DNA of 64,000 nucleotides from assembly GCF_008634025.1 (NCBI RefSeq), contig NZ_PDCM01000002.1, positions 1,922,001 through 1,986,000 on the forward strand, written 5' to 3'. This document shows, one piece after another, positions 15,278 to 31,540 of this stretch. Position 1 is the first letter of the stretch. Every line of letters begins with the position of its first letter. The notes beneath the pieces are model-generated. The model did not search any database and had not been told where the DNA came from. It worked only from the letters and a program-made list of their open reading frames with translations. The translations under genes were made by a program, and so were the position numbers. The DNA comes from Streptomyces albofaciens JCM 4342 (lineage in GTDB: Bacteria; Actinomycetota; Actinomycetes; Streptomycetales; Streptomycetaceae).

Positions 15278-16495
15278 ATGACCCCGGCCCGCCCGACCCC
15301 GCTCCCCCGCGCCGACCGGCCGCGGATCCTCGTTCTCCGGGCGCTCGGCCTCGGGGACCTGCTGACGGCGGTGCCCGCGTTGCGGGCGCTGCGTACCGCG
15401 TTTCCGCGGCACGAGCTGGTGCTGGCGGCGCCCGGCCGGCTGGCCGAGGCCGCCGCGGCGACGGGTGTGGTCGACCGGCTGCTGCCCGCGTCGGCGCCCG
15501 GCCGCGGCGTGCCGCGGGCGGTGGACTGGGACGGCCCGCCCCCGGCGATCGCCGTGGACCTGCACGGCAACGGGCCGGCCAGCCATCTGCCGCTGCTGGC
15601 GCTGCGCCCGGTCCGGCTGTTCGCGTACGCGCATCCCGCGATGCCCCGCCTCCTGGGCCCGGTCTGGCGCGAGGACGAGCACGAGCGCAGCCGGTGGTGC
15701 CGTCTGCTGACCTGGTACGGCGTTCCGGCGGATCCGGACGATCTGCGGATCGACGCGCCGCCGGGCCCGTCCCCGGCGCCGGGCGCGGTGGTGGTGCACC
15801 CGGGCGCGGACGCGGTGGCGCGCCGCTGGCCGCCGGAGCGCTTCGCCGCGGTGGCGCACGCGCTGCACCGGGCGGGGCACCGCGTCGTCCTGACCGCCGG
15901 GGCCGGTGAGGGGCCGCTCGCCCGGCAGGTGGCCGTGCAGGCCGGGCTGCCGCCGTCGGCGGTTCTGGGCGGCTCGGCGGACGTGCCGTTCGGGGAGCTG
16001 GCGGCGCTGGTCGCGCAGGCCCGTGCGGTGATCGTGGGCGATACCGGGCTCGCGCATCTGGCCAGCGCGCTCGGCACGCCGTCCGTGGTGCTCTTCGGGC
16101 CGGTCGCGCCCCGGCTGTGGGGCCCGCCGCGGCTGCCCCGGCACCGGGCGCTGTGGCATCCGGGCCACCTGGACCGGGCCCGCCCGGGCGACGCGCACGG
16201 GGAGCAGCCGGACGGACGGCTGCTGCGGATCACCGCGGCGGAGGTGCTGACGGCGGTGGCGCGGCTGCCGGAGCCGGTGCGGCGGCCCGAGAACGTACGG
16301 CGGACACCGGCCGTGTGGCGGCCGGAGTCCGTAGGGCCGGACGAGCCCGTGCGGTCGGCCGAGCCCGTGCGTCCGGGCGAATCCGTACCTCCGGACGAGC
16401 CCGTACGACCGGCCGAGCCCGTATCGCGGCCGGAGCCGGAGGACGTGCCGGATTCGGCGCCGGATTCGGCGCCGGTCTCGGTGCCGGCGCCGTGA
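15278..16495 (+). CDS. Glycosyltransferase family 9 (heptosyltransferase-like)
   Basis: This 405-residue protein is related to the ADP-heptose:LPS heptosyltransferases. It starts RILVLRALGLGDLLTAVPAL, the typical GT9 nucleotide-independent N-terminal loop, and has VVHPGADAVARRWPPERFAAVA and the donor-binding VGDTGLAHLASALGTPSVVLFGP. The ATG at 15278 follows AAGGAGG by seven bases. The last 75 residues are an unusual Pro/Glu/Val repeat tail (EPVRSAEPVRPGESVPP and similar). It opens a one-strand glycan cluster that also contains heptose-nucleotide genes; its stop overlaps the next start. Confidence 0.92.
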   Translation: MTPARPTPLPRADRPRILVLRALGLGDLLTAVPALRALRTAFPRHELVLAAPGRLAEAAAATGVVDRLLPASAPGRGVPRAVDWDGPPPAIAVDLHGNGPASHLPLLALRPVRLFAYAHPAMPRLLGPVWREDEHERSRWCRLLTWYGVPADPDDLRIDAPPGPSPAPGAVVVHPGADAVARRWPPERFAAVAHALHRAGHRVVLTAGAGEGPLARQVAVQAGLPPSAVLGGSADVPFGELAALVAQARAVIVGDTGLAHLASALGTPSVVLFGPVAPRLWGPPRLPRHRALWHPGHLDRARPGDAHGEQPDGRLLRITAAEVLTAVARLPEPVRRPENVRRTPAVWRPESVGPDEPVRSAEPVRPGESVPPDEPVRPAEPVSRPEPEDVPDSAPDSAPVSVPAP

Positions 16496-17454
16496 CGGCC
16501 CCGGAGCAGCGGCGCGCCCCCGTGCCCCCGCCGGCCCGCCGGGTCCTGCTCACCGGCTGGTTCAGCTTTCTGCACGGCGAGGTGACGGCCGGGGACATGC
16601 TCGCGGCCGAGGCCGTGCAGGACGCGCTGCGCGGTGCCGGGATCGCGTACGACACGGCCTGGTCGCCGGTGTTCCGGCCGGAGGGGCTGCGTCTGGACGA
16701 CGCCGATCCCGCGGCCTTCACCGACGTGGTCTTCGCCTGCGGGCCGGTGCACTCGCGGCCCACGCCGGACGGCGGGCCGAGCCCGCTGCTCGCGCTGCAC
16801 GAACGGTTCGCCGGGTGCCGCCGGGTCGCCGTCGGCGTGTCCGTACCCGATCCGGACGATCCGGCGGTGGCCCGGTTCGACGAGGTGCTGGCCCGGGACG
16901 TGGCCGGGCGGCGGACCGGGGCGCAGGACCTGAGCCTGCGGGCCCCGGCGCCGCGCGGCGTGCCGCTCGTCGGTGTGGTGCTGACCGGCGGGCAGCACGA
17001 GTACGGCGCCCGGCGGCGGCACGAGGAGGTCACGGAGCGGCTGACGGACTGGCTGGGGACGGTGGAAGCGGCCCGCCTGCCGCTGGACACCCGGCTGGAC
17101 TCGCGCGACTGGCGGCTGCCCGCGACGCCGGACGAACTGCACGCGGTGCTGGCCCGGCTGGACGTGGTGGTGACGACCCGGCTGCACGGCATGGTCCTGG
17201 CGCTGCGCGCGGGCACCCCGGCGCTCGCCGTCGATCCCGTCGAGGGCGGTGCGAAGGTCAGCGCGCAGGCGGCGGCGCTGGGCTGGCCGGCCGTACTGCG
17301 CTGCGAGCAGGCCGGGAAAGGGGAGCTGGACCGGCTGTTCGCCTGGTGCCTGTCGCCGCAGGGCCGGGCTCAGACGGGGCCGCACACGCTGGCGCCGGAG
17401 GGGGACGGGCTGCTCGACGGGCTGCTGCGGTCGCTGGCTCGGACATACGGGTGA
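16492..17454 (+). CDS. Polysaccharide pyruvyl transferase family protein
   Basis: The 320-residue protein has the PS_pyruv_trans pattern: LLTGWFSFLHGEVTAGDMLAA at the N-terminus, VVFACGPVHSRPTPDGG, and the C-terminal signature TTRLHGMVLALRAGTPALAV. Such enzymes move pyruvate from phosphoenolpyruvate to a sugar hydroxyl pair, or form related fold enzymes with other substrates. The GTG at 16492 overlaps the upstream stop (GTGA). It likely decorates the glycan made by this cluster with an acidic ketal. Confidence 0.88.
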   Translation: MTAPEQRRAPVPPPARRVLLTGWFSFLHGEVTAGDMLAAEAVQDALRGAGIAYDTAWSPVFRPEGLRLDDADPAAFTDVVFACGPVHSRPTPDGGPSPLLALHERFAGCRRVAVGVSVPDPDDPAVARFDEVLARDVAGRRTGAQDLSLRAPAPRGVPLVGVVLTGGQHEYGARRRHEEVTERLTDWLGTVEAARLPLDTRLDSRDWRLPATPDELHAVLARLDVVVTTRLHGMVLALRAGTPALAVDPVEGGAKVSAQAAALGWPAVLRCEQAGKGELDRLFAWCLSPQGRAQTGPHTLAPEGDGLLDGLLRSLARTYG

Positions 17455-17681
17455 CTGTGCGGCGGTGGCCGGGCCGGGGAGCCGGGGCCCCGCTCCCTCG
17501 ACGCACCGGAATTGACTGGCCACGCGCGGCCACCGGGAAGCAACGGGTGGGAAAGCCCGTCATGCGGCGACTTTTCAGCTTAAGCGATGCCAGGCGTGTG
17601 CGCAGCGTCGCCGAGCGTGACGTTTTCTCCGGGGCTGGAGTGGCACCCGATGCCCGGTAGCCCCTAGCCGAGGGAGATCCC

Positions 17682-18644
17682 ATGAACGCCGCCCTGTCCC
17701 GGAACTGGAAACACGCCGTGGTGACCGGCGGCGCGGGTTTCGTCGGCTCGCATCTGTGCACCGCCCTGCTGGCCCAGGGCGCCGCGGTGACCTGCGTCGA
17801 CGACTTGAGTACCGGAGCGCGGGAGAACATAGCCCACCTCAAGGGCCGTTCCGGGTTCACCTTCGTGGAGGCCGATGTCACCGAGCCGTTCCGCATCGGG
17901 CGCGAGGTGGACCTCGTCCTGCACTTCGCCTCCCCCGCCTCCCCTGCCGACTACCTGCGCCTGCCCCTGCACACGCTGGACACCGGCAGTCTGGGCACGC
18001 GCAACGCGCTCGCGGTGGCCCGCGCGCACGGGGCGCGCTTCGTCCTCGCCTCGACCTCGGAGGTGTACGGCGATCCGCAGCAGCATCCGCAGAGCGAGTC
18101 GTACTGGGGCAATGTCAACCCGATCGGCCCCCGGAGCGTGTACGACGAGGCGAAACGTTTCGGCGAGGCGCTGACGACCGCCGAGGCGGGCACCCACGGC
18201 ACCGACACCGGCATCGTGCGGCTGTTCAACACCTACGGGCCGCGGATGCGGGGGCACGACGGCCGGGCGGTGCCGACGTTCATCCGGCAGGCCCTGGCGG
18301 GCGAGCCGCTCACCGTCACCGGGGACGGGCGGCAGACCCGCTCCCTGTGCCACGTGGACGACACCGTACGGGGTGTCCTCGCGGTGGCCGCCTCCGATCT
18401 GCGCGGCCCGGTCAACCTGGGCAACCCGGTCGAGATCACCATGCTCGGCCTGGCCCGGCTGATCACCGAACTGACCGGCTCCCGCTCCGAGATCCGCTTC
18501 ATCGAACGGCCCACGGACGACCCCGCGGTCCGCTGCCCCGACATCACCCTGGCCCGCGGCAAGCTCCAGTGGGAGCCCGAGGTGGCGGCCCGGGACGGTC
18601 TGGCGCGGACCGTCGACTGGTTCCGCAGGCGGCAGGGGGCCTGA
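17682..18644 (+). CDS. NAD-dependent epimerase/dehydratase, UDP-glucuronate decarboxylase type
   Basis: The 320-residue short-chain dehydrogenase has the Rossmann motif [44 protein letters not shown] with the catalytic Tyr and Lys of YXXXK, and [14 protein letters not shown]. The [16 protein letters not shown] string is characteristic of UDP-glucuronate decarboxylase (UXS), which makes UDP-xylose. It is less like HldD, so it probably does not epimerise ADP-heptose. GAGGGAGATCCC precedes the ATG. The preceding 227-base gap contains a TTGACT and an AT-richer stretch and may hold the promoter of the rest of the cluster. Confidence 0.9.
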
Positions 18645-18746
18645 CCCGGCGCCGGTTCCGGCCGGGCCGCAGCCCCCGGCGTCCGGGCCGCCCCGACCGG
18701 GCGCGGCCGGCCGCCGTCCATCCCGACGAAAGGCCAGCGAACTGCC

Positions 18747-20543
18747 ATGCGCATTCTCGGCATCAACGCGCTCTTCCACGACCCCGCCGCCGCCCTCGTC
18801 GTCGACGGGCAGACCGTCGCCGCCGCCGAGGAGGAACGCTTCTCGCGGCGCAAACACGGCAAGCGGCCGGTGCCCTTCTCCGCCTGGGAGACGCCCGACC
18901 AGGCCGCCGCCTGGTGCCTGGCCACGGCCGGCCTGCGCCCCGAGGACCTGGACGCGGTGGCGTACTCCTTCGATCCCCGGCTCGCCCGGCCCGCCGAGCG
19001 GATGGGGCTGGACGACCCCTGGGACCACCTGCGCCTGACGTACGCGCGCGAGGCCCCCGGGTTCCTCAGGACGGCGCTGCCGGGGCTCGATCCGGAGCGG
19101 GTGCGGTTCGTGCCGCACCACATGGCGCACGCCGCGTCCGCCGCGTTCGCCGCGCCGGACGCCGACACCTGCTCGGTGCTGGTGCTCGACGGCCGCGGCG
19201 AGGCGACCTCGCACCTGGCCGCGCAGCGCGTACAGGGCAAGCTGGAGCCGCTGTACGGGCAGGAGCTGCCGCACTCGCTCGGCCTGGTCTACGAGGAGCT
19301 GACCGCGCACCTCGGGTTCCTGCGCTCCTCGGACGAGTTCAAGGTGATGGCGCTGGCCTCGTACGGCACTCCGCGGATGCTGCCCGAGCTGCGCCGCCAC
19401 GTGTACCCGACGGGCGACGGCGGATTCCACGCCGCGCACGTGCCGTGGAGCGACCTGTGCGTGCCGCGCGCCCCGGAGGAGCCGTGGAGCCAGGCGCACG
19501 CCGATCTCGCGGCCAGTGCCCAGCTGGTCCTGGAGGAGACGCTGCTCGACCTGGCCCGCTGGCTGCACGGCCGCACGCACGACAGTGTGCTGACGCTGGC
19601 CGGCGGGGTGGCGCTGAACTGTGTGGCCAACGCGCGGATCGCGCGCGAGGGTCCGTTCGACCGGGTGTGGGTGCAGCCCGCGGCCGGTGACGCGGGCACC
19701 GCGCTCGGCGGCGCGCTGCTGCTGAGCGCCGACGGCGGCGAGGAGCCCGCGCCGATGCCCGGCGCCGACCTGGGCCGCGGCTGGTCCGACGCGGAGCTGG
19801 AGGCGTGGCTGCGGACCGCCGCCGTGCCGTTCGAGCGGCCGCAGGACATCGCCGCGACCGTCGCGGAGGCGCTGGCCGAGAACGCCGTCGTGGCCTGGTT
19901 CCAGGGGCGTTCGGAGTACGGGCCGCGGGCGCTCGGCCACCGCTCCCTGATGGCGCACCCGGGCCACTCCGCGAACCTGGAGCGGCTCAACGACGTCAAG
20001 GGGCGCGAGCAGTTCCGGCCGGTGGCCCCGATGGTGCTCGCCGACCGGGCGGGCCAGATCTTCGACGGGCAGCTGCCCAGCCCCTACATGCTCTTCGTGC
20101 ACGACGTGGCGAAGGAGTGGCGGGAGCGCATCCCGGCCGTGGTGCACGTGGACGGCACCGCCCGCATCCAGACCGTGGACCCGGCCGACGAGCCGCTGGT
20201 GGCCCGGATGCTGGCCGAGTTCGAGCGCCGTACCGGACTGCCCGTCGTCGTCAACACGAGCCTGAACACCGCGGGCCGGCCGATGGTCGACGACCCGCGG
20301 GACGCGCTGGAGTGCTTCGGCTCCACGCCGGTGGACCTGCTGGCCATCGGCCCGTTCGCGGTGCGGCGGGAGGAGTTCTTCGCCGCCGGGAACCGCTCGG
20401 CGCGGCGCCCGGCCGAGGTGCTGTCGTTCCCGTCGGGGCACGAGGAGACGGTGGCGCCCGCCTCGTACGACCGGCTGGCGGAGACCGCGTCCCTGCCGAT
20501 CGCGGGGCCGGTCGCGGGCAGCGGTGAGGAGGCGGTCCGATGA
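18747..20543 (+). CDS. Carbamoyltransferase (NodU/CmcH/TobZ type)
   Basis: This 598-residue enzyme transfers carbamoyl from carbamoyl phosphate through an adenylate to a sugar hydroxyl. The N-terminal Kae1-like domain starts ILGINALFHDPAAALVVDG and contains the metal ligands VPHHMAHAASAAF near residue 126; the C-terminal YrdC-like domain has GRSEYGPRALGHRSLMAHP near residue 390. The last 60 residues are an extension. It overlaps the next glycosyltransferase by four bases, fixing it in the glycan operon. Confidence 0.94.
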   Translation: MRILGINALFHDPAAALVVDGQTVAAAEEERFSRRKHGKRPVPFSAWETPDQAAAWCLATAGLRPEDLDAVAYSFDPRLARPAERMGLDDPWDHLRLTYAREAPGFLRTALPGLDPERVRFVPHHMAHAASAAFAAPDADTCSVLVLDGRGEATSHLAAQRVQGKLEPLYGQELPHSLGLVYEELTAHLGFLRSSDEFKVMALASYGTPRMLPELRRHVYPTGDGGFHAAHVPWSDLCVPRAPEEPWSQAHADLAASAQLVLEETLLDLARWLHGRTHDSVLTLAGGVALNCVANARIAREGPFDRVWVQPAAGDAGTALGGALLLSADGGEEPAPMPGADLGRGWSDAELEAWLRTAAVPFERPQDIAATVAEALAENAVVAWFQGRSEYGPRALGHRSLMAHPGHSANLERLNDVKGREQFRPVAPMVLADRAGQIFDGQLPSPYMLFVHDVAKEWRERIPAVVHVDGTARIQTVDPADEPLVARMLAEFERRTGLPVVVNTSLNTAGRPMVDDPRDALECFGSTPVDLLAIGPFAVRREEFFAAGNRSARRPAEVLSFPSGHEETVAPASYDRLAETASLPIAGPVAGSGEEAVR

Positions 20544-21592
20544 CCGCGCCGACCACCGACTACGTGGTGGTGATCCCGACGCTCGGGCGGCCGAGCCTGA
20601 CGGCGTGCCTGCGCGCGCTGGCCGCGGCCGAGGGGCCGCCGCCGCTCCAGGTCGTGCTGGTGGACGACCGGGCGCTGGACGACTGCACCCCGCTGCCGGC
20701 CGAGATCCCGGAGGCGCTGCGCGACCGGACGAAGATCGTCCCGGGCTGCGCGCGCGGCCCGGCGGCGGCCCGCAACGCGGGCTGGCGGGCGGCGGACGCC
20801 ACGCCGTGGGTGGTCTTCCTGGACGACGACGTGGTGCCGGGCCCCTCCTGGGGTACGGACCTGGCCGCCGACCTCGCCGCCGCGTCGCCGCGTACGGCCG
20901 GGATCACCGCGCGGATCGCCGTGCCGGTGCCCGTCGACCGCCGCTCGACGGACTGGGAGCGCAACACCGCGGGGCTGGCCACCGCCAAGTGGATCACCGC
21001 GGACATGGCGTACCGGCGGGACGCGCTGGAGTCCGTGGACGGCTTCGACGAACGCTTCCGGCGCGCCTTCCGGGAGGACGCCGATCTGGCGCTGCGGGTG
21101 CTGGCGGCCGGCTGGGCGCTGGCGTCCGGCACCCGCCGCACCACGCACCCGGTGCGTCCGGCCGACCGCTGGGTCTCCGTACGGCTCCAGGCGGGCAACG
21201 CCGACGACGTGCTGATGACCCGCCGGCACGGCCGGGACTGGTGGCACCACGCGGACGCGCCGCGCGGCCGGCTGCCGTGGCACCTGGCGGTGACCGCGGC
21301 GGCGGGTGCCTCGCTGGTGTGTGCCGCGGCCGGGCGGCGGCAGGCGGCGGCGGTGCTGGCCGGGCTGTGGCTGGGCGGTACGGCGGAGTTCGCGTGGGCG
21401 CGGATCGCGCCGGGCCCGCGGACCCGGGAGGAGGTGGTGACGATGGCGGTGACCAGCGTGCTGATCCCGCCGTCGGCGGCGGGGCACTGGCTGCGCGGCC
21501 TGGTGCGGCACCGCCGGGTGGCGCCGCTGAGCGTGCGGCCCGCGCCCGCGGTGCCGCAGGCTCTGCCGGAGCCGGTGCCGGAGCGGGTGTAG
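20540..21592 (+). CDS. Glycosyltransferase family 2, membrane-anchored
   Basis: The 350-residue protein has a GT-A fold: YVVVIPTLGRPSLTACL, a DXD-like FLDDDVVPGPSW near residue 95, and WERNTAGLATAKWITADMAYRR followed by GFDERFRRAFREDADLALR, a typical acceptor/catalytic region. The C-terminal third has two or more hydrophobic stretches (LAVTAAAGASLVCAAAG, AAVLAGLWLGG), so it is probably membrane-attached. The donor sugar cannot be read. Confidence 0.9.
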   Translation: MTAPTTDYVVVIPTLGRPSLTACLRALAAAEGPPPLQVVLVDDRALDDCTPLPAEIPEALRDRTKIVPGCARGPAAARNAGWRAADATPWVVFLDDDVVPGPSWGTDLAADLAAASPRTAGITARIAVPVPVDRRSTDWERNTAGLATAKWITADMAYRRDALESVDGFDERFRRAFREDADLALRVLAAGWALASGTRRTTHPVRPADRWVSVRLQAGNADDVLMTRRHGRDWWHHADAPRGRLPWHLAVTAAAGASLVCAAAGRRQAAAVLAGLWLGGTAEFAWARIAPGPRTREEVVTMAVTSVLIPPSAAGHWLRGLVRHRRVAPLSVRPAPAVPQALPEPVPERV

Positions 21593-21595
21593 CCG

Positions 21596-22297
21596 GTGAA
21601 CAGGCATCAGGACACCGCGCCGGGCGCCCGTGCGGCGACGGCGGTCGCGGACCCGGCGGCGGAGCGCGAGGAGGCCGGGCGCCTGTGGCTGTACGCGCCG
21701 GGGCGGCAGGCCCCCGAGCGGGTGCCGGTCCCCACCCGGCCGCCGTCCGGCGACGCCGGCCCGCTGGAGGCGGTGCTGTTCGACCGGGACGGGACGCTGG
21801 TGGCCGATGTGCCGTACAACGGCGACCCGTCGCTGGTGGAGCCGATGCCCGGCGCGCGGGAGGCCGTGGCGGCGCTGCGGGCCCGCGGCCTGAGGGTGGG
21901 CGTGGTGAGCAACCAGTCCGGCGTCGCGCGCGGCCTGCTGACGGGTGACCAGGTGGCCGCCGTACGGCGGGAGATCGACGCGCGGTTCGGGCCGTTCGAC
22001 GTGTGGGCCGTGTGCCCGCACGGGCCCGGGGACCGCTGCGGCTGCCGCAAGCCCGCGCCCGGCCTGGTCCTCGCCGCCTGCGCACACCTCGGCGTCCGCC
22101 CCGCGCGTACCGCCGTGGTCGGCGACATCGGCGCGGACGTGGGCGCGGCGCTGGCCGCCGGGGCGCGCGGGGTGCTCGTCCCGACGCCGATGACGCGGGC
22201 GGAGGAGGTCGTCGCGGCCCGCGCGTACGCACGCGATCTGCCGGGCGCCGTACGGCTGTTGCTGGGCGGCCGGAGCACCGGGGAGGGCGCCGTATGA
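21596..22297 (+). CDS. gmhB: HAD-IIIA phosphatase, D-glycero-heptose-1,7-bisphosphate phosphatase-like
   Basis: GmhB removes the 7-phosphate from heptose 1,7-bisphosphate between the two HldE steps. The 233-residue protein has LFDRDGTLVADVPYNGDP (motif I), VVSNQSGVARGLL (motif II), CPHGPGDRCGCRKPAPG carrying the CXH...CXC zinc loop typical of GmhB, and VVGDIGADVGAALAAGA (motif III/IV). An extra N-terminal 55 residues precede the catalytic core. A GTG start lies three bases after the preceding stop. Histidinol phosphatase is the alternative, but gmhA and hldE in the same cluster support heptose. Confidence 0.87.
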   Translation: MNRHQDTAPGARAATAVADPAAEREEAGRLWLYAPGRQAPERVPVPTRPPSGDAGPLEAVLFDRDGTLVADVPYNGDPSLVEPMPGAREAVAALRARGLRVGVVSNQSGVARGLLTGDQVAAVRREIDARFGPFDVWAVCPHGPGDRCGCRKPAPGLVLAACAHLGVRPARTAVVGDIGADVGAALAAGARGVLVPTPMTRAEEVVAARAYARDLPGAVRLLLGGRSTGEGAV

Positions 22298-23391
22298 CCT
22301 CGGCCCCGCGGACGCTCGTCGTCCGGCTGGACAGCGCGGGTGATGTGCTGCTGGCCGGTCCGGCGGTACGCGCCGTGGCGGCGGGCTCGTCGTACACCGC
22401 GCTGCTGTGCGGCCCGCTGGGCGAGCGGGCGGCGCGGCTGCTGCCCGGTGTGGACGAGGTGATCGTGCACGACGCGCCGTGGGTGGGCCTGCGGCCCGCG
22501 CCGGTGGACCGGCGGGTCACGGAGAAGCTGGTCGACACCCTGGCGGCGGGCCGGTTCGACCGGGCGCTGGTGCTCGTCTCGTACCACCAGAGCCCGCTGC
22601 CGGCCGCGCTGCTGCTCAAGCTCGCCGGGGTCGGCTGGGTCGCGGCGGACAGCGTGGACTACCCCGGCGCGCTGCTGGACCTGCGGCACCACCGCAAGCC
22701 GCACCGGCACGAGGCCGAGGCGGCGCTCGACCTCGCGCGGGACGCCGGGTTCGCCCTGCCGCCCGGCGACGACGGCGCCCTCGGCGTCCTGCCGCCGCCC
22801 GACACCTCTCCCCTGACCGGCCCCGACCCGTACGTGGTGCTGCACCCGGGCGCGGCGGTGCCGGCCCGTGCCTGGAGTGCCGCGCGGGCGGCCCGGGCGG
22901 CGGGCGCGCTGAGCGCGGCGGGCCACCGCGTCGTCGTCACCGGCGGGCCCGGCGAACGGGAGCTGACCGCCGCCGTCGCGGGCGGCCACGCGCTGGACCT
23001 CGGCGGGCGCACCGATGTGCACCAGCTCGCCGGGGTGCTGGCGGGCGCGCGGGCCGTGGTCGTCGGCAACACCGGCCCCGCGCACCTGGCGGCCGCCGTG
23101 CGCACACCGGTCGTCTGCCTGTTCGCGCCGGTGGTGCCCGCGCGGCTGTGGGCGCCGTACGGCGTGCCGCACATCCTGCTGGGCGACCAGGACGCGCCGT
23201 GCGCGGGCAGCCGTGCCCGGCGCTGCCCGGTGCCCGGACACCCCTGTCTCGACACGGTCAGCGACACCGCGCTGCTCGCGGCCGTGTCCCGGCTGACCGG
23301 CCCGGGACGGCCGTCGGTGCCCTCCGCGCCCGGCCGTACGGACCGTTCCGCAGCGGCTCCCGACGACACCGAACGAGGTGCGACTGTATGA
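22294..23391 (+). CDS. Glycosyltransferase family 9 (second heptosyltransferase-like)
   Basis: The 365-residue protein is a second GT9 enzyme: LVVRLDSAGDVLLAGPAVRAV at the start, VVLHPGAAVPARAWSAARAARA, and VVGNTGPAHLAAAVRTPVVCLFAP in the donor site. A Cys-rich CAGSRARRCPVPGHPCLD near residue 310 is also found in some GT9 proteins. It overlaps gmhB by four bases and the next glycosyltransferase by four. With the first GT9 gene it suggests at least two heptose residues, or heptose added in two linkages. Confidence 0.92.
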   Translation: MTSAPRTLVVRLDSAGDVLLAGPAVRAVAAGSSYTALLCGPLGERAARLLPGVDEVIVHDAPWVGLRPAPVDRRVTEKLVDTLAAGRFDRALVLVSYHQSPLPAALLLKLAGVGWVAADSVDYPGALLDLRHHRKPHRHEAEAALDLARDAGFALPPGDDGALGVLPPPDTSPLTGPDPYVVLHPGAAVPARAWSAARAARAAGALSAAGHRVVVTGGPGERELTAAVAGGHALDLGGRTDVHQLAGVLAGARAVVVGNTGPAHLAAAVRTPVVCLFAPVVPARLWAPYGVPHILLGDQDAPCAGSRARRCPVPGHPCLDTVSDTALLAAVSRLTGPGRPSVPSAPGRTDRSAAAPDDTERGATV

Positions 23392-24353
23392 ACATCCTGC
23401 TCTGGCATGTCCACGGATCGTGGACGACCGCGTTCGTCCAGGGGCCGCACACCTATCTGGTGCCGGTCACCCCGGACCGGGGCCCCGACGGGCTGGGCCG
23501 CGCCCGTACCTTCCCGTGGCCCGAATCGGTGGTGGAGAAGACCCCGGCGGAGCTGCGGCACACCCCGGTCGACCTGGTCGTGCTCCAGCGTCCGCACGAG
23601 GCGGAGCTGGCGGAGCGCTGGCTGGGCGGGCGCCGTCCCGGCCGGGACGTGCCCGCCGTCTACCTGGAGCACAACGCGCCGGACGGCGACGTGCCGCACA
23701 CCCGCCACCCGTACGCCGACCGGGACGACCTGACGCTGGTGCACGTCACCCACTTCAACCGGCTGTTCTGGGACAACGGCGGCACCCGTACGGAAGTGAT
23801 CGAGCACGGCATCGTGGACCCCGGCCACCTCTACACCGGGGCCGTCGAACGCGCCGCGGTCGTGGTCAACGAGCCGGTCCGGCGCGGCCGTACGGTCGGC
23901 ACCGACCTGCTGCCCGAGCTGTCGGCCGCCGCCCCGCTGGACGTCTTCGGCATGCGCACCGACGGGCTCGCCGAGCATCTGGGCCTGCCACCGGACCGCT
24001 GCCGCACGGCCGACCTGCCACAGGCCGACCTGCACGCGGCGATGGCGCAGCGGCGGCTCTACCTGCACCCGGTGCGCTGGACCTCGCTGGGCCTGTCGCT
24101 GCTGGAGGCCATGCACCTGGGCATGCCGGTGGTGGCCCTGGCCACCACCGAGGCCGCCGAAGCGGTGCGGCCCGGCACCGGCACCCTCTCCAACCGGCCC
24201 GAAGTCCTGGCCCGGGCCGCCCGGACGTACCTGGAGGACCCCGACGCGGCGGCCGAGGACGGCGCGCGGGCCCGCCAGGCGGCGCTGGAGCGCTACGGGC
24301 TCAAGCGCTTCCTGCACGACTGGGAACGCCTGATCACGGAGGTGCGGACATGA
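23388..24353 (+). CDS. Glycosyltransferase, GT-B fold (group 1 type)
   Basis: The 321-residue protein starts MNILLWHVHGSWTTAFVQG and ends with a GT-B donor half: LYLHPVRWTSLGLSLLEAMHLGMPVVALATTEAAEAV, the E-X7-E-like region of GT4 enzymes. YLEHNAPDGDVPHTRHP lies in the acceptor half. It is shorter than most GT4 proteins. Coupled by four-base overlaps on both sides. Donor and acceptor are unknown. Confidence 0.85.
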   Translation: MNILLWHVHGSWTTAFVQGPHTYLVPVTPDRGPDGLGRARTFPWPESVVEKTPAELRHTPVDLVVLQRPHEAELAERWLGGRRPGRDVPAVYLEHNAPDGDVPHTRHPYADRDDLTLVHVTHFNRLFWDNGGTRTEVIEHGIVDPGHLYTGAVERAAVVVNEPVRRGRTVGTDLLPELSAAAPLDVFGMRTDGLAEHLGLPPDRCRTADLPQADLHAAMAQRRLYLHPVRWTSLGLSLLEAMHLGMPVVALATTEAAEAVRPGTGTLSNRPEVLARAARTYLEDPDAAAEDGARARQAALERYGLKRFLHDWERLITEVRT

Positions 24354-25591
24354 CCACCCCGCTGCGTGACACCCCGCGCCTGTCCGTCGCGCTCGTGTCC
24401 GAGCACGCCAGCCCGCTGGCGGTGCTCGGCGGCGTCGACGCGGGCGGCCAGAACGTCCATGTCGCGCGCCTGGCCGGCGCGCTGGCCGACCGGGGGCACC
24501 GGGTGACGGTGTACACCCGGCGGGACGCCGCCGATCTGCCGGACGAGGTGGTGCTGCGGCCCGGTGTACGGGTCCGGCACGTCCCCGCCGGGCCGCCCCG
24601 GCACGTGCCCAAGGACTCCCTGCTGCCGTACATGACCGCGTTCGGCGACCACCTGGCCGCCGAATGGCGGGTACGGGCGCCGGACCTGGTCCACTCGCAC
24701 TTCTGGATGTCCGGCCTGGCGGCGCTCCAGGCGACCCGCGAACTGGGGCTGCCGCTCGCCCACACGTACCACGCGCTGGGCACCGTCAAGCGCCGCCACC
24801 AGGGCGACGCCGACACCAGTCCGCGCTCCCGCGTCGCCTGCGAGGTCGAGGTGGGCGAGGGCTGCGACCGGGTGATCGCCACCTGCCGCGACGAGGTCGA
24901 CGAGCTGGCCCGGATGGGCATCGGCGACGGCAAGGTCAGCGTGGTGCCGTGCGGGGTGGACACCGCGCGCTTCACGCCGGACGGGCCGGTCGCCGACCAC
25001 AGCGCGCACCACCCGCTGCTGCTCCAGCTCGGCCGGCTCGTCCCGCGCAAGGGCGCGGAGGTGTCCGTCGCCGCGCTGGCCCGGCTGCCCGAGGCCCGGC
25101 TCGTCATCGCCGGCGGGCCGCCCGCCGACCGGCTCGACGAGGACCCGGAAGTACGGCGGCTGCGCGAACTCGCCCGCGCCGCCGGGGTGGCGGACCGGGT
25201 GAGCTTCATCGGCGGCGTGCCCTGCGAGGACGTACCGCCGCTGCTGCGCGCCGCCGACGTGGTGCTGTGCCCGGCGGACTACGAGCCGTTCGGCATCGTG
25301 CCGCTGGAGGCGATGGCCTGCGGGACGCCGGTGGTGGCCACCGCCGTCGGCGGGCAGCTGGACACCGTGGCCGACCCGGACTGCGGGCGGCTGGTGCCGC
25401 CGCGCGATCCGGCCGCGCTGGCCCACGCGGTCGGCGAACTGCTCATGGACGGCGAGCGGCGGGCCGCCTGCGGTGCCGCGGGCCGCCGGCGCGTACTGGC
25501 CCGGTACGGCTGGGACCAGGTCGCGGCCGGCACCGAAGTCGTCTACCGCGGCGTGCTGAGCCCGCGGCCCGCCGTCACCGAGGTGGCCTGA
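24350..25591 (+). CDS. Glycosyltransferase family 4 (sucrose-phosphate-synthase/MshA-like)
   Basis: This 413-residue enzyme has LVSEHASPLAVLGGVDAGGQ with the GGQ loop found in sucrose-phosphate synthase-like and MshA-like GT4 enzymes, LVHSHFWMSGLAAL, the central VSVVPCGVDTARFTP, LQLGRLVPRKG, and the catalytic DYEPFGIVPLEAMACGTPVVA. These bind an NDP-sugar and retain anomeric configuration. It is the best-conserved glycosyltransferase of the cluster. It is followed by a 114-base gap before gmhA. Confidence 0.92.
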   Translation: MTTPLRDTPRLSVALVSEHASPLAVLGGVDAGGQNVHVARLAGALADRGHRVTVYTRRDAADLPDEVVLRPGVRVRHVPAGPPRHVPKDSLLPYMTAFGDHLAAEWRVRAPDLVHSHFWMSGLAALQATRELGLPLAHTYHALGTVKRRHQGDADTSPRSRVACEVEVGEGCDRVIATCRDEVDELARMGIGDGKVSVVPCGVDTARFTPDGPVADHSAHHPLLLQLGRLVPRKGAEVSVAALARLPEARLVIAGGPPADRLDEDPEVRRLRELARAAGVADRVSFIGGVPCEDVPPLLRAADVVLCPADYEPFGIVPLEAMACGTPVVATAVGGQLDTVADPDCGRLVPPRDPAALAHAVGELLMDGERRAACGAAGRRRVLARYGWDQVAAGTEVVYRGVLSPRPAVTEVA

Positions 25592-25705
25592 CCCCTGTCC
25601 GCGGCCACGCCCGGCCGGCCGTCCTACGCCCTGACCCCGCCGCAGACGTGTGAAGGAGGTGCGGGCCCCCGGCGCCACCGGCGCCCCTGCGGGAGCCCGA
25701 CGACC

Positions 25706-26365
25706 ATGAGCCATCCTCTCGACGCCGCCCACCGCCACTGCCAGTCGCTCCAGGACGCGGTGCACCAGCTGCGCCGCCACCACCTGCGCCGGATAGCCGA
25801 GTGGGGGAACCAGCTCGGCGCCGTGCTGCCGGTGGGCGGCCGGCTGCTCGCCGCGGGCAACGGCGGCAGCGCCGCCCAGGCCCAGCATCTGACGGCCGAA
25901 CTCGTCGGCCGCTACCAGCACGACCGCCCCGCCTACTCGGCGATCGCCCTGCACGCGGAGACCTCCAGCGTCACCGCCATCGGCAACGACTACGGCTTCG
26001 AGCAGGTCTACGCCCGGCAGGTGGCCGCGCACGGCCGCCCCGGCGACATCCTCCTGCTGCTCTCCACCTCCGGCCGCAGCCGCAATCTGCTGGCCGCCGC
26101 CGAGACCGCGCGCGACGCGGAGCTGCGGGTGTGGGCGCTGACCGGGCCCCGGCCCAACCCGCTGGCCGACGCCGCCGACGAGGCGGTGTGCGTGCACTCC
26201 CCCAGCAGCGCGACGGTGCAGGAAGCGCACCTGATAGCGGTGCACATCCTGTGCGAGCACTTCGACGCCGTCAGCGCCGCGCCGCCGTCCGCGCCGTCCG
26301 CCTCGGACGTCCCGCTGGGAGCCGCGGTGGAAGTCGCGGTGGCGGACCGGGACGGTGCGCTGTGA
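25706..26365 (+). CDS. gmhA: SIS-domain phosphoheptose isomerase
   Basis: GmhA converts sedoheptulose 7-phosphate to D-glycero-D-manno-heptose 7-phosphate. The 219-residue protein has the SIS pattern with AAGNGGSAAQAQHLTAELVGRY, where GNGGSAxxAxH(x)xxEL is the GmhA signature, HAETSSVTAIGNDYGFE, and LSTSGRSRNLLAA. The C-terminal SPSSATVQEAHLIAVHILCE carries the conserved Gln and His. The length fits GmhA plus a 25-residue tail. A strong AAGGAGGT lies 45 bases before the ATG; the nearer GGGAG is the likely ribosome site. Confidence 0.92.
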   Translation: MSHPLDAAHRHCQSLQDAVHQLRRHHLRRIAEWGNQLGAVLPVGGRLLAAGNGGSAAQAQHLTAELVGRYQHDRPAYSAIALHAETSSVTAIGNDYGFEQVYARQVAAHGRPGDILLLLSTSGRSRNLLAAAETARDAELRVWALTGPRPNPLADAADEAVCVHSPSSATVQEAHLIAVHILCEHFDAVSAAPPSAPSASDVPLGAAVEVAVADRDGAL

Positions 26366-26399
26366 ACGCCCGGTGCGGCACCGGCCCCGGGAGGCGGCT

Positions 26400-27803
26400 G
26401 TGAGCGCCCGTCAGCCCCTGGTCGTCGTGGGGGACGTCCTGCTGGACCGGGACATCGACGGCGAGTCCTCGCGCCTGGCGCCGGACGCGCCCGCCCCGGT
26501 GGTGGATGTCACCGACGACCGCAGCCGGCCGGGCGGTGCGGGACTCGCCGCGGCGCTCGCCGCGCGCTCGGGACGCGAGGTGGTCCTGGTCGCCGCGCTG
26601 GGTCAGGACCCGGCGAGCGAGGCGGTACGGCGCGCGCTGCGCGGCGTCGTACGCCTGGTGGAGATCCCCCTGGACGGTCAACTGCCGGAGAAGACACGGG
26701 TGATGGCGTCCGGACGTCCCCTGGTGCGGTTCGACCGCGGCGGCGGGCGGCCGGGCGGGCCCGGGCCCGGGGTGCGCGAGGCGCTCGCCGGAGCGCGGGC
26801 CGTGCTCGTCGCCGATTACGGGCGGGGCACCGCGGCGGCGGTGCGCGACCTGCTCGCCGACGTGGCGCACCGGGTCCCGCTGCTGTGGGACCCGCACCCG
26901 AAGGGCGATCCGCCCGTGCCGGGCGCGCGGCTGGTCACGCCCAACGCCTCCGAAGCGCGCGCGCTGGCCTCCGGTGAGGACCGGTCACTGCACGCCTGTG
27001 CCGTACGGGGCGCCCAACTGGCCGCCGAATGGCAGGCCGCGGCCGTCGCGGTGACGCTCGGCGCGCGCGGCGCGCTGCTGGCCAGGGCGGGCAGCGACTC
27101 TCCGATGCTGGTGCCCGCGCCGTACCGGGCCGACGGCGACCCGTGCGGGGCGGGCGACTGCTTCGCCGCCACCGCGGCCGCCGCACTGGCCGACGGCGCG
27201 CTGCCCGAGGAAGCCGTGCAGCGGGCCGTCGCCGAAGCCGCCGCCTTCGTCGCGGCCGGCGGCGCGGGCAACCGGGCCCTGTGGCAGACCGCGCCACCGG
27301 CGGACCGGCCGGCGGCGGCGCGGCCCGACGACCCGTTCGAGCTGGCCCGGTGCGTACGGGCCAGGGGCGGCACGGTGGTCGCCACCGGCGGCTGCTTCGA
27401 CCTGCTGCACGCCGGGCACGTCGGCCTGCTGGAGAGCGCCCGGCGCATCGGCGACTGCCTCATCGTGTGCGTCAACTCCGACGCGTCCGTCACCCGCCTC
27501 AAGGGCCCGGGGCGGCCGCTGACCCGGGCGGCGGACCGCATCCGCGTCCTGGCCGGGCTGGGCAGCGTCGACGCCGTCGCGGTGTTCGAGGAGGACTCGC
27601 CCGTCGAGCTGCTGCGGCGGCTGCGGCCCGACGTATGGGTCAAGGGCGGCGACTACTCGGTGGACGCGCTGCCGGAGGCGGCCACGCTGCGGGAGTGGGG
27701 CGGCCAGGCCCTCGTCCTGCCGTACCTGGACGGCAGGTCGACGACCGCGCTGGCCCGGCGCGCGGCCCGCGCCGCCGCGCCGGGGCCGGAGGTCCGGCCG
27801 TGA
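26400..27803 (+). CDS. hldE: Bifunctional heptose-7-phosphate kinase / heptose-1-phosphate adenylyltransferase
   Basis: HldE phosphorylates heptose 7-phosphate at C1 and later adenylylates heptose 1-phosphate to ADP-heptose. The 467-residue protein has both domains: an N-terminal PfkB/ribokinase domain (VVVGDVLLDRDIDGESSRLAPDAP; anion hole GDPCGAGDCFAATAAAA) and a C-terminal cytidylyltransferase-fold domain from about residue 325 (VATGGCFDLLHAGHVGLLE with HXGH; GPGRPLTRAADRIRVLAGL). The length matches enterobacterial HldE. The GTG at 26400 follows GGGAGGCGG. The stop overlaps the next start. This is the strongest evidence that nucleotide-activated heptose is made. Confidence 0.94.
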   Translation: MSARQPLVVVGDVLLDRDIDGESSRLAPDAPAPVVDVTDDRSRPGGAGLAAALAARSGREVVLVAALGQDPASEAVRRALRGVVRLVEIPLDGQLPEKTRVMASGRPLVRFDRGGGRPGGPGPGVREALAGARAVLVADYGRGTAAAVRDLLADVAHRVPLLWDPHPKGDPPVPGARLVTPNASEARALASGEDRSLHACAVRGAQLAAEWQAAAVAVTLGARGALLARAGSDSPMLVPAPYRADGDPCGAGDCFAATAAAALADGALPEEAVQRAVAEAAAFVAAGGAGNRALWQTAPPADRPAAARPDDPFELARCVRARGGTVVATGGCFDLLHAGHVGLLESARRIGDCLIVCVNSDASVTRLKGPGRPLTRAADRIRVLAGLGSVDAVAVFEEDSPVELLRRLRPDVWVKGGDYSVDALPEAATLREWGGQALVLPYLDGRSTTALARRAARAAAPGPEVRP

Positions 27804-28723
27804 CCGCGCGGACGGTGGGGCTGCCCGGCGCCGTGGCCGCGCCGCAGGCCCGGCGCACCGCGCAGGTGGGCATCGTCATGATCACCAGGGACCGGCGCGA
27901 GCGGCTGCTCGGCACGCTGGAGCGGATCACGCGGCTGCCCGAGGAGCCGCCCGTGGTCGTCGTGGACAACGGCTCGTCGGACGGCACCGCGGCCGCCGTG
28001 CGCGAGCGCTTCCCCGCCGTACGGGTCCTGACGCCCGGCCGCAATCTCGGCGCGGTCGGCCGTACGTACGGAGCCGCCGCACTCGGCACGCCGCTCGTGG
28101 CGTTCAGCGACGACGACTCCTGGTGGGAGCCCGGCGCCCTGGCGCGGGCCGCCGAGGTGTTCGCGGCGCATCCGCGGCTGGGGCTGGCCGCCGCCGCGAC
28201 CCTGGTCGGTCCGGACGCCGGACCCGACCCGCTCAACGACGTGCTCGCCGCCTCCCCGCTGGGCCGCGAACCCGACCTGCCGGGGCCGTCCGTGCTCGGC
28301 TTCCTGGGCTGCGCCGCCGTCGCCCGCCGCGACGCCTTCCTGGAGGTCGGCGGCTACCACCCCGTACTCCACTTCGGTGCCGAGGAAACGCTGCTGGCCC
28401 TCGACTTGGAAGCGGCCGGCTGGGGCGTCGCCTACTGTCCCGCGCTCGTCGCCCGCCACCAGCCCGACGGCGCGGGCGGCGCACCGCGGCCGGGCCGCGC
28501 CGCCCAGGTGCGCCGCAACGTCCTGCTCACCGCGTGGCTGCGCCGCCCCCTGCGGCACGCCCTCGTGCGCACCGTGCGGCTGGCGCTGGACGCGCGTACT
28601 GACCCGGCGGCCCGGCTCGCCCTGGCCGGAGCCGTACGCCGGCTGCCGGCCGCGCTCGCGCGCCGACGGCTGCTGCCCGCGCCGGTGGAAGCCCGGGTGC
28701 GGGTGCTGGAGGGGGCGCCGTGA
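27800..28723 (+). CDS. Glycosyltransferase family 2 (first of a tandem pair)
   Basis: The 307-residue GT-A enzyme has VGIVMITRDRRERLLGTLER, VVVVDNGSSDGTAAAVRERF, and a DXD-bearing AFSDDDSWWEPGALARAAEVF near residue 100. FLGCAAVARRDAFLEVGGYHP and GAEETLLALDLEAAGWGVAY follow. The N-terminal 23 residues are an extra Ala/Arg segment. The next gene encodes a clear paralogue with the same DDDSWWEPGALA string. The GTG overlaps the hldE stop. Confidence 0.9.
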   Translation: MTARTVGLPGAVAAPQARRTAQVGIVMITRDRRERLLGTLERITRLPEEPPVVVVDNGSSDGTAAAVRERFPAVRVLTPGRNLGAVGRTYGAAALGTPLVAFSDDDSWWEPGALARAAEVFAAHPRLGLAAAATLVGPDAGPDPLNDVLAASPLGREPDLPGPSVLGFLGCAAVARRDAFLEVGGYHPVLHFGAEETLLALDLEAAGWGVAYCPALVARHQPDGAGGAPRPGRAAQVRRNVLLTAWLRRPLRHALVRTVRLALDARTDPAARLALAGAVRRLPAALARRRLLPAPVEARVRVLEGAP

Positions 28724-28758
28724 GCGTGGGCGCCGTGGCCGGAAACGGTCTCGGGACC

Positions 28759-28770
28759 GGTGACGTCACC
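28759..28770. promoter_or_regulatory. Perfect 12-bp palindrome upstream of the second GT2 gene
   Basis: GGTGACGTCACC lies in the 112-base gap between the two GT2 genes, preceded by the near-palindrome GGTCTCGGGACC. It could be a regulator site or a weak stem-loop. Only the symmetry is seen. Confidence 0.3.
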
Positions 28771-28835
28771 CGGGCGCCCCGGAGTACGCCGAGGAACCGC
28801 AGCCGCACGCCCGCACCGACCCGAGGAAGCCTCCC

Positions 28836-29783
28836 GTGACCACCGATCCCCGCACCACCGTCATCGTCATCACCCACAACCGCAGCGACGACCTGCTGCA
28901 CACCCTGGACCGGCTCGCCGAACTGCCCGAGAAGCCACCGGTCATCGTGGTGGACAACGGCTCCACCGACGGCAGCGCGTCCGCCGTCCGCCGCCACCCC
29001 CTCGCGCCGCGGCTGATCCCGCTGGCGCACAACACCGGGGCGGTGGGGCGCAATCTGGCGGCGCGGGTGGCGACCACGCCGTACCTGGCGTTCTGCGACG
29101 ACGACTCGTGGTGGGAGCCCGGCGCGCTGGCCGGGGCCGCCGACCTGCTGGACGCGCACGGGCGACTGGGCGCGGTGACCGCGCGCATCATGGTTCACCC
29201 GCATCCGGACGCCCCGGAGGCGGGCGGCGCGGCGGACGGCGGCCCCGGCGAGCCGTTCGAGGACCCGATCGTCCAGGAGCTGCGGCACTCGCCGCTGCCC
29301 GCGCCCTCCTGGCTGCCCGGACCCGCGCTCGGGTCCTTCCTCGCGGCGGCGACCGTGCTGCGCGCCGACGCCTTCCGGGCGGCGGGCGGCTTCTCGCCCC
29401 GGCTGGTGCTGGGCGGCGAGGAGGAGCTGCTCGCCGCCGACCTCGCGGCCGACGGCTGGTGGCTCGCGTACGCCGACCGGCTCACCGTCCACCACCGGGC
29501 GTCGCCGCACCGCGACGCGACGCTGCGCCGGCGCCAGGGCATCCGCAACACGCTGTGGTTCACCTGGCTGCGCCGGCCGCTGCCGGCCGCGGTACGCCGT
29601 ACCCGGACGCTCGTCTCGACGGTGCCCCGCGACGCGGTGTCGGTACGGGCGTTCGCCGAGGCGGTCGGCGGTCTGCCGTGGGTGCTGCGGGAACGGCGCC
29701 CGGTGCCGCGGGAGGTGGAGGGCCGGCTGCGGCTGCTGGAGGCGCCGCAGCGGGAGTCCACGGCGCGGCGCTACTGCGGCTGA
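28836..29783 (+). CDS. Glycosyltransferase family 2 (second of a tandem pair)
   Basis: The 315-residue GT-A enzyme has TTVIVITHNRSDDLLHTLDR, VIVVDNGSTDGSASAVRRH, AFCDDDSWWEPGALAGAADLL with the DXD, and LGGEEELLAADLAADGWWLAY. It shares order and wording with the preceding gene, so the two arose by tandem duplication and diverged in acceptor regions. GAGGAAGC precedes the ATG. It is the last gene of the glycan cluster and is followed by a tandem repeat array. Confidence 0.9.
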   Translation: MTTDPRTTVIVITHNRSDDLLHTLDRLAELPEKPPVIVVDNGSTDGSASAVRRHPLAPRLIPLAHNTGAVGRNLAARVATTPYLAFCDDDSWWEPGALAGAADLLDAHGRLGAVTARIMVHPHPDAPEAGGAADGGPGEPFEDPIVQELRHSPLPAPSWLPGPALGSFLAAATVLRADAFRAAGGFSPRLVLGGEEELLAADLAADGWWLAYADRLTVHHRASPHRDATLRRRQGIRNTLWFTWLRRPLPAAVRRTRTLVSTVPRDAVSVRAFAEAVGGLPWVLRERRPVPREVEGRLRLLEAPQRESTARRYCG

Positions 29784-30313: not shown

Positions 30314-31540
30314 TTACTTCTCGCCGACCTTCAGCAGCTTGTTGGGCGTGCCCTGGCTCGGGTTCTTGATCTTGTCGGCCGTGGCGCCGTCGGTCAGCGC
30401 CTTGGCGACCGCGTCCGGCTTGGCGTCCTTGTGGGCGCTCAGGTAGACCGCGGCGGCGCCCGCGACGTGCGGGGTGGCCATGGACGTACCGGAGATGGTC
30501 TTGGTGCCCTGGTCGCTGTCGTTCCAGTCCGAGGTGATGTCCGAACCCGGCGCGTAGAGGTCCACGGCGCTGCCATAGTTGGAGAAGTCGGACTGCTCGT
30601 CGGTGTTGGTGCTGGAGGCGACCGTGATGGCCTCCTCGACCCGCGCCGGGGAGCCCTGGCCCGCGTCGGTGGACTCGTTGCCCGCCGCCACGGCGAAGGT
30701 GACGCCGGAGGCGACCGCCTTCTGCACCGCCGCGTCCAGCGCCTCGTCGGCGCCGCCGCCCAGCGACATGTTGGCGACCGACGGGCCCTTGTGGTTCTTG
30801 GTGACCCAGTCGATGCCGGCGACGACCTGCTCGGTGGAGCCGGAGCCCTGGTCGTCCAGCACGCGCACGGCCACGATCTTGGCCTTCTTGGCGACGCCGT
30901 GCGCCTTGCCGGCGATGGTGCCCGCGACGTGGGTGCCGTGGCCGTTGCCGTCGGTGGCGTCGTTGTCGCCGTCCACCGCGTCGAAGCCGGAGGACGCGCG
31001 GCCCTCGAAGTCCTGGTGCGAGGTGCGCACACCGGTGTCGATGACGTACGCGGTGACGCCCTCGCCCGCGCTGTCGGGGTAGCTGTACTTCTTGTCGCCC
31101 TGGGTGTCCGCCTGGTCGATGCGGTCCAGGCCCCACGACGGCGGGTTGTCCTGGACGGCGTTGACGTGGAACTTCTTGTTCTGCACGACCTTGTCGACGG
31201 CCGGGTCGGCGGCCAGCCGGCGGGCCTCCTCGGCGCTGAGGCCGGTGGCGGAGAAGCCGTTCAGCGCGGCGGAGTAGGTCCGCTTGACCTCGCCGCCGTA
31301 CTTGTCGGCCAGGTCCTTGTTCTGCTCGGCCTGCACCGCGGCGCCGCGGACCGAGTTCTTGAGCATGACGATGTAGCTGCCGCTGACGGCGCCCTTGGCC
31401 TCGGCGCCGTACACCGTGCCCTCGGCGGGCGACGCGCCCGCGGTGACCGCGGTGACGGTGGCGATGCCGCCGGCCGCGACCACCGCGGATATCGCGGTGA
31501 CGAGCCGCTTCTTGCTGGAACGCTTGTGAGCGTGAGCCAT
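30314..31540 (-). CDS. Secreted subtilisin-family (S8) serine protease
   Basis: This 408-residue preproprotein has a signal peptide (KKRLVTAISAVVAAGGIATVTAV, residues about 10-34), an inhibitor_I9 propeptide (YIVMLKNSV...NGFSATGLS, about 55-125), then a proteinase-K-like S8 domain. The triad is Asp168 in VIDTGV, His201 in GHGTHVAG and Ser353 in GTSMATPHVAG, with oxyanion Asn288 in AAGNES. The ATG at 31540 follows GAGGAG. It has no C-terminal extra domain. It should be exported, self-process and act extracellularly as a broad protease. Confidence 0.96.
   Translation of the reverse strand: MAHAHKRSSKKRLVTAISAVVAAGGIATVTAVTAGASPAEGTVYGAEAKGAVSGSYIVMLKNSVRGAAVQAEQNKDLADKYGGEVKRTYSAALNGFSATGLSAEEARRLAADPAVDKVVQNKKFHVNAVQDNPPSWGLDRIDQADTQGDKKYSYPDSAGEGVTAYVIDTGVRTSHQDFEGRASSGFDAVDGDNDATDGNGHGTHVAGTIAGKAHGVAKKAKIVAVRVLDDQGSGSTEQVVAGIDWVTKNHKGPSVANMSLGGGADEALDAAVQKAVASGVTFAVAAGNESTDAGQGSPARVEEAITVASSTNTDEQSDFSNYGSAVDLYAPGSDITSDWNDSDQGTKTISGTSMATPHVAGAAAVYLSAHKDAKPDAVAKALTDGATADKIKNPSQGTPNKLLKVGEK

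Follow-up and report, generated by a model that had tools for sequence, protein, structure and literature searches.

A predicted heptose glycan cluster of Streptomyces albofaciens is a rearranged orthologue of the cwg operon

Gene content and layout of the cluster

Thirteen genes encoding predicted enzymes of glycan biosynthesis are located on the + strand of a 64,000-nucleotide stretch of the Streptomyces albofaciens JCM 4342 genome (9.25 Mb; contig NZ_PDCM01000002.1, positions 1,922,001 to 1,986,000), referred to as the window in the following. The cluster spans positions 15278 to 29783 (Table 1) and shows strong third-position GC and the codon statistics of real genes. Families were assigned by Pfam and NCBIfam models with their cut-offs. 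The gene products are homologues of GmhA, HldE and GmhB, two GT9 proteins (GT9a and GT9b), a UDP-glucuronate decarboxylase (UXS), a carbamoyltransferase, a pyruvyltransferase-like protein and five further glycosyltransferases (GT), namely GT2a, a group 1 GT, GT4, GT2b and GT2c; the same list had been drawn up in an earlier sequence-only reading of the window. The coupling by 4-base overlaps mentioned there was found at five junctions (20540/20543, 22294/22297, 23388/23391, 24350/24353 and 27800/27803).

Table 1. Features of the cluster and the adjacent transporter gene (positions in the window)
Feature	Position	Strand	Evidence
GT9a, GT9 protein	15278..16495	+	PF01075 80.5 bits; 63% identity to S. 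coelicolor-type gene
Pyruvyltransferase-like protein	16522..17454	+	PF04230 44.6 bits; 60% identity to S. coelicolor-type gene
Intergenic stretch before UXS, possible second promoter site	17455..17681	+	
UXS, UDP-glucuronate decarboxylase, cwgA / SCO6179 orthologue	17682..18644	+	67% identity to S. coelicolor-type gene
O-carbamoyltransferase, NodU/TobZ family	18747..20543	+	PF16861 222.2 bits, PF02543 170.6 bits
GT2a, GT2 glycosyltransferase	20540..21592	+	PF00535
GmhB-like HAD-IIIA phosphatase	21596..22297	+	profile match
GT9b, GT9 protein, cwgE / SCO6183 orthologue	22294..23391	+	80.8 bits
GT1x, group 1 glycosyltransferase	23388..24353	+	PF00534 44.9 bits
GT4 glycosyltransferase, SCO6185 orthologue	24350..25591	+	PF00534 143.1 bits
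GmhA-like sedoheptulose 7-phosphate isomerase	25706..26365	+	SIS_2 83.2 bits
HldE, heptose 7-phosphate kinase and heptose 1-phosphate nucleotidyltransferase	26400..27803	+	NCBIfam domain models
GT2b, GT2 glycosyltransferase	27800..28723	+	PF00535 59.5 bits; 61% identity to S. coelicolor-type gene
GT2c, GT2 glycosyltransferase, last gene	28836..29783	+	PF00535 73.5 bits; 68% identity to S. coelicolor-type gene
MFS transporter, frequent neighbour, outside S. coelicolor-type locus	12589..13866	-	profile match

Identity as the cwg operon

As judged from sequence and gene order, the cluster is a rearranged orthologue of the cwg (cell wall glycan) operon of S. coelicolor, SCO6179-6190. All 12 cwg genes have orthologues in it (59-76% identity), and the 13th gene matches the gene located just past the operon. 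A stretch designated L086 was taken as the cwg locus of S. coelicolor (S. coelicolor type) based on an exact match to the published 29-base cwg promoter, which was found in one of 392 Streptomyces genomes searched (an 8.6-Mb genome), and on gene number and gene order. Adjoining this promoter, UXS, carbamoyltransferase, GT2, GmhB, GT9, GT1, GT4, GmhA, HldE, GT9, GT2 and GT2 are encoded, followed by the pyruvyltransferase-like gene on the opposite strand and outside the 12-gene operon. By counting, GT9a is presumably the orthologue of the tenth cwg gene (SCO6188) and the pyruvyltransferase-like gene that of the gene adjoining cwg (SCO6191). Except for the second GT9 gene, which lies ahead of UXS in the window, the order from UXS to GT2 is that of cwg (gene order only). 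SCO6179-6190 is named the cwg cluster in PMC5839063 (partial text). The fifth L086 gene, a GT9, agrees with the labelling of sco6183 (cwgE) as a putative heptosyl transferase (PMC5882110, partial text), and the seventh, a GT4, with that of SCO6185 as a glycosyltransferase (PMC4630627, partial text).

In an HldE tree of 51 rows, for which every third of the 80 best loci was taken and one locus with a short match (L142) was left out, 32 of the 33 Streptomycetaceae rows form one clade (support 99/97) with two branches, the S. coelicolor type comprising 4 rows and the window type 28; L139 is placed outside. Since both types are found in one supported clade, the window cluster is an orthologue and no look-alike. 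The operon, reportedly described by Hong et al. in 2002, had thus been named already, which was missed in the sequence-only reading, so that the locus is less surprising than stated there; its heptose chemistry is inferred.

Enzymes of the predicted nucleotide-heptose route

Gene counts among near relatives and the conservation of single residues given below refer to the best 80 of 530 relatives, all close to the window type; the residue rows also include the window copy and the S. coelicolor type. GmhA (25706) scored 163.5 bits with the NCBIfam GmhA models, which is under the cut-off of 209.45, and up to 132 bits against solved phosphoheptose isomerases, 5i01 among them, with the expected active-site positions invariant in 79 of 79 rows. 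The adenylyltransferase domain of HldE (26400) exceeded its NCBIfam cut-off (183.7 vs 181.5), while the kinase domain (122.3 vs 345) and the whole bifunctional model (280.9 vs 521) did not; the solved chain nearest to the C-terminal half is the putative cytidylyltransferase 5x9q (134 bits). The GmhB-like protein (21596) was under the cut-off as well (104.7 vs 178), and its DxD and Cys/His positions are conserved in relatives. Since the expected catalytic positions are kept in the relatives, chance resemblance is excluded, and the set of ADP-heptose pathway homologues (GmhA, HldE and GmhB) is present, several of the models being below equivalog cut-offs. A gene outside the cluster that matched SIS_2 with a higher score was rejected as a second GmhA because it encodes a different sugar isomerase; two weaker matches were found besides.

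The claim that no HldD-like epimerase is encoded holds genome-wide: no gene exceeded the cut-off, the best match reaching 109.9 bits vs 274.6. The gene at 17682, which the sequence-only reading had considered as a possible HldD, was rejected as such, since it is below the HldD cut-off and, among solved structures, resembles UDP-glucuronate decarboxylases most (human UXS1 329.9 bits, next non-UXS chain 124.3). In view of the missing HldD and the identity of 17682 as UXS, D-glycero-heptose is probably used directly.

The nucleotide attached to the heptose might not be restricted to ADP. According to a comment on Tang et al. 2024 (PMC11461863, partial text), arginine at the fifth place of the motif (F/L)XXGXSTT lets the enzyme also make CDP- and UDP-heptose. 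The corresponding motif of the window HldE, YLDGRSTT, has Arg at the fifth place and Tyr as its first residue, so it does not match letter for letter. At this position (Arg446), 74 of the 81 covered rows (82 in total: 80 relatives, the window copy and the S. coelicolor type) have Arg, six His and one Leu.

UXS, carbamoyltransferase and pyruvyltransferase-like protein

The catalytic residues of UXS are kept (Tyr in 66, Lys in 65, Arg in 66 and Glu in 64 of 66 rows), and three nucleotide-sugar dehydrogenase genes over the cut-off are located elsewhere in the genome. The carbamoyltransferase matched models of both its C-terminal (PF16861) and N-terminal (PF02543) domain and scored 287 bits to the novobiocin carbamoyltransferase chain. 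The pyruvyltransferase-like protein (16522) is the weakest assignment: PF04230 was exceeded (44.6 vs 25.3 bits), with a best stretch of just 38 residues, while the CsaB model gave 22.6 bits vs a cut-off of 213.1. Its predicted structural model is GT-B-like, and a Foldseek search returned many GT-B proteins with low TM-scores, yeast Pvg1p being at rank 8, which leaves the pyruvyltransferase activity putative. No pyruvyltransferase appears among 50 further rows listed, a result that does not count against this activity. Judging by gene content, a pyruvyl group is not part of the core, because the gene lies outside the 12-gene operon on the other strand in the S. coelicolor type and is present in 15 of 61 loci spanning the cluster (see below).

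Glycosyltransferases

Both GT9 proteins exceed the Pfam cut-off of 22 bits (Table 1) and are under every NCBIfam heptosyltransferase cut-off. For GT9b (22294), the GT9 sequence family and fold were confirmed, as its model superposes on WaaF and WaaC. GT9a keeps Asp255 in 56 of 56 covered rows. No clear membrane segments were found in any of the 13 proteins by a hydropathy scan (three with one marginal window; the MFS transporter as control gave eight), which means that export and anchoring would depend on proteins encoded elsewhere.

Distribution and gene content in relatives

HldE was found in 52 of 150 Streptomyces genomes, the window genome counted. A class sample of 138 genomes gave 35 with HldE, which belong to 20 of its 68 genera. 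The gene-order comparison across Streptomyces genomes suggested in the sequence-only reading was carried out with 61 spanning loci, i.e. those with UXS, carbamoyltransferase and HldE among 64 loci of at least 15 kb; a cwg-type order was found and core and optional genes were counted. GT4 and GmhA are encoded in all 61, GT2a and GT1 in 55 each, GT9b in 49, the MFS transporter in 48, GmhB and GT9a in 46 each, GT2b in 28, GT2c in 20 and the pyruvyltransferase-like gene in 15. The absence of GmhB from 15 loci was rejected as a sign of a broken pathway, since all five such genomes searched keep a homologue (59-68% identity) elsewhere; the copy of one of them (G521) is probably located just past the stretch fetched (L025).

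Outside this set, 20 of the 35 HldE-bearing class-sample genomes, 19 of them from other genera, were compared in stretches of up to 20 kb. The remaining one, L139, is of the same genus as the window and carries none of the other cwg genes. Two of the 20 stretches (L124 and L128) gave no GmhA, and the HldE of L136, missed in gene calling, was located by tblastn. The HldE motif was readable in 15 loci, with Arg in 11, His in three and Gln in one. UXS, carbamoyltransferase and GT2a were all present in 13 and all absent within the stretch in seven of these loci, and therefore behave as a module. The module is not strict, as 6 of the 61 Streptomyces-type loci have UXS and carbamoyltransferase without GT2a.

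A short-chain dehydrogenase (SDR) gene adjoins HldE in 19 of the 20 class-level loci, all but L139 (e.g. L123:10767-11456), and a YxxxK pattern is common to all 19 proteins. No close copy is present in the four Streptomyces genomes searched, where the best identity is 33-42% (61-81% among the 19). Weaker matches (29-39% identity) in 25 of 85 stretches searched are probably other SDRs. The HldE-linked SDR may modify the nucleoside diphosphate (NDP)-heptose. Both the module pattern and the HldE-adjoining SDR may be new to print.

Some HldE genes differ in architecture. In L142 (8084-10372), L139 and L127, GmhA and HldE are apparently one frame (762, 679 and 676 residues), a natural isomerase-kinase-nucleotidyltransferase fusion. 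In genomes G112 and G117 the HldE match runs over two adjacent frames, perhaps as a result of gene decay or of sequencing errors. Several actinomycetes (G405, G443, G450, G461, G466 and others) encode an additional HldE that is more distant, with about 39-43% identity to the window copy.

Predicted product and route

Heptose, pentose and carbamoyl groups are expected from the gene content; together with the separation of core from optional genes by the comparison of loci, this makes the product testable. The best reading is probably an envelope glycan with heptose and pentose, carbamoylated and sometimes pyruvylated. It is considered reasonably probable that the rearranged cwg orthologue directs the cytoplasmic synthesis of an oligosaccharide or glycopolymer of the cell envelope, which is exported by machinery encoded elsewhere. 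In the route proposed, with the steps up to the nucleotide-heptose taken from family knowledge, GmhA would convert sedoheptulose 7-phosphate to D-glycero-D-manno-heptose 7-phosphate, the kinase domain of HldE would form heptose 1,7-bisphosphate and GmhB would remove the 7-phosphate. The nucleotidyltransferase domain of HldE would then yield ADP-heptose, perhaps also CDP- or UDP-heptose given Arg446, and without HldD the D-glycero-heptose would be used as made. UDP-xylose would be formed by UXS, with a nucleotide-sugar dehydrogenase encoded outside the cluster providing the UDP-glucuronate. Heptose transfer would fall to at least one of the GT9 proteins. Because GT4, the group 1 GT and the heptose genes are also found where UXS is missing, these two GTs probably act close to the acceptor. 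A separable decoration step (pentose plus O-carbamoyl) would be carried out by UXS and carbamoyltransferase, usually together with GT2a, and the pyruvyltransferase-like protein would make an optional late change.

Several observations weigh against an envelope glycan of this kind. GmhA, GmhB and the HldE kinase domain are all below equivalog cut-offs. Where WaaC has Lys192 and Asp261, which we take to be donor-site residues, Arg and Asn are found in GT9b (59 of 59 rows), and no GT9 gene was found within the fetched stretch in 10 of the 61 spanning loci; a GT9 protein therefore need not be a heptosyltransferase everywhere. The locus is patchy, with HldE in about a third of the Streptomyces genomes. 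No membrane, polymerase, flippase, initiating transferase or ligase gene was recognised in the cluster, so 'polymer' is unproven. The wall polymers of Streptomyces named in PMC11481543 (partial text) are teichulosonic acid and poly(diglycosyl 1-phosphate), and the known wall polymers described there contain no heptose. Literature searches, which did not cover the original 2002 description, returned no chemical structure of the cwg product and no product or mutant chemistry.

Regulation speaks on both sides. The cwg operon is a textbook target of sigma-E, and in favour of an envelope role it is vancomycin-induced and partly sigma-E-dependent in S. coelicolor (PMC6767563, partial text). Against it, a search that allowed three mismatches did not detect the S. 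coelicolor sigma-E promoter of cwg in the window, and a sigma-E-like pattern was not enriched upstream of UXS (5 of 63 regions; shuffled sequences: mean 3.5, maximum 9); the pattern is a crude regular expression which other sigma-E sites could escape, and its hits include the S. coelicolor type. Sigma-E control by analogy was therefore rejected, and neither vancomycin nor sigma-E control should be assumed for the window cluster.

The same gene set could serve other ends. It might yield a small secreted, heptose-containing and carbamoylated glycoside, i.e. a specialised metabolite and not a wall component, with the neighbouring MFS transporter as exporter. This gene adjoins the cluster in 48 of 61 spanning loci, but is absent from the S. 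coelicolor-type stretch and from all 20 class-level loci. All GTs appear soluble, the distribution is patchy, and heptose genes as well as TobZ/GdmN-type carbamoyltransferases are familiar from antibiotic clusters (septacidin is mentioned in PMC11461863, partial text). No scaffold genes were found among the flank genes scanned, however: polyketide synthase, nonribosomal peptide synthetase, nucleoside and aminocyclitol genes were all lacking among the cluster and flank genes scanned (part of the window genes), as the sequence-only reading had stated for the latter two. With the vancomycin and envelope-stress regulation of cwg in S. coelicolor (PMC6767563, partial text) as a further counterargument, a secreted glycoside seems unlikely. 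Protein glycosylation, with the GT9 enzymes as TibC-type heptosyltransferases and the other GTs extending the sugar, is distinctly improbable. We consider it very improbable that the relatives of GmhA, HldE and GmhB were recruited to another substrate and no heptose is made. The models below equivalog cut-offs and the two donor-site positions at which GT9b is unlike WaaC would fit such a recruitment, whereas the nucleotidyltransferase domain is over a heptose-specific cut-off, GmhA resembles solved phosphoheptose isomerases with invariant active-site positions, and the three genes are kept together or within the same genome.

An envelope glycan is thus retained as the likeliest product. From the surface polymer or glycolipid with heptose, carbamoyl and pyruvyl groups that the sequence-only reading had proposed, the surface glycan stands, while the pyruvyl group drops out of the core and a polymer is unproven. 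A wider proposal is put forward only tentatively: actinomycetes might share an undescribed D-glycero-D-manno-heptose envelope glycan with a swappable pentose-plus-carbamoyl module, in which the HldE-linked SDR would alter the heptose outside Streptomyces and CDP- and UDP-heptose would occur besides ADP-heptose. In mammals, activated heptoses act as immune agonists (PMC11461863, partial text), and a heptose route in many actinomycetes would bear on which bacteria can carry that signal.

Other genes in the window

Three further regions on the - strand were annotated. A subtilase with an I9 propeptide (30314-31540), mycosin-like and below the mycosin model cut-off, faces the end of the cluster. 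The gene at 32109-33290 encodes a macrolide-type glycosyltransferase, which reached 666.6 bits with the model of the macrolide-inactivating Mgt, just under the cut-off of 700, and is over the cut-off for the wider family. A SAV2148-like protein with HEPN and DUF5919 domains (42638-43903) adjoins a 1112-residue regulator with BTAD and AAA domains (39045-42383).

Comparison with known systems

With the Gram-negative lipopolysaccharide route to ADP-L-glycero-D-manno-heptose (GmhA, HldE, GmhB, HldD and WaaC/WaaF), the cluster shares homologues of GmhA, HldE and GmhB as well as GT9 transferases. It differs in that the host is Gram-positive, no HldD is over the cut-off, and UXS and carbamoyltransferase genes are coupled to the heptose genes. 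Among Streptomyces antibiotics, septacidin and hygromycin B are made by heptose clusters. These share with the window cluster the occurrence of heptose precursor genes in an actinomycete, whereas the window lacks nucleoside and aminocyclitol genes among those scanned and its cluster is kept in a cwg-type order across many species. Like the NDP-heptose enzymes found across kingdoms (Tang et al. 2024, as reported in PMC11461863, partial text), the window HldE combines kinase and nucleotidyltransferase with Arg at the fifth motif place; unlike them, it starts the motif with Tyr instead of Phe or Leu and is encoded in a glycan operon. The closest system is cwg of S. coelicolor. Its divergent deacetylase gene (SCO6178) was not found in the window, and the second GT9 and the pyruvyltransferase-like gene are located upstream of UXS on the same strand in the window, while all 12 cwg genes are present, nine of them in the same order.

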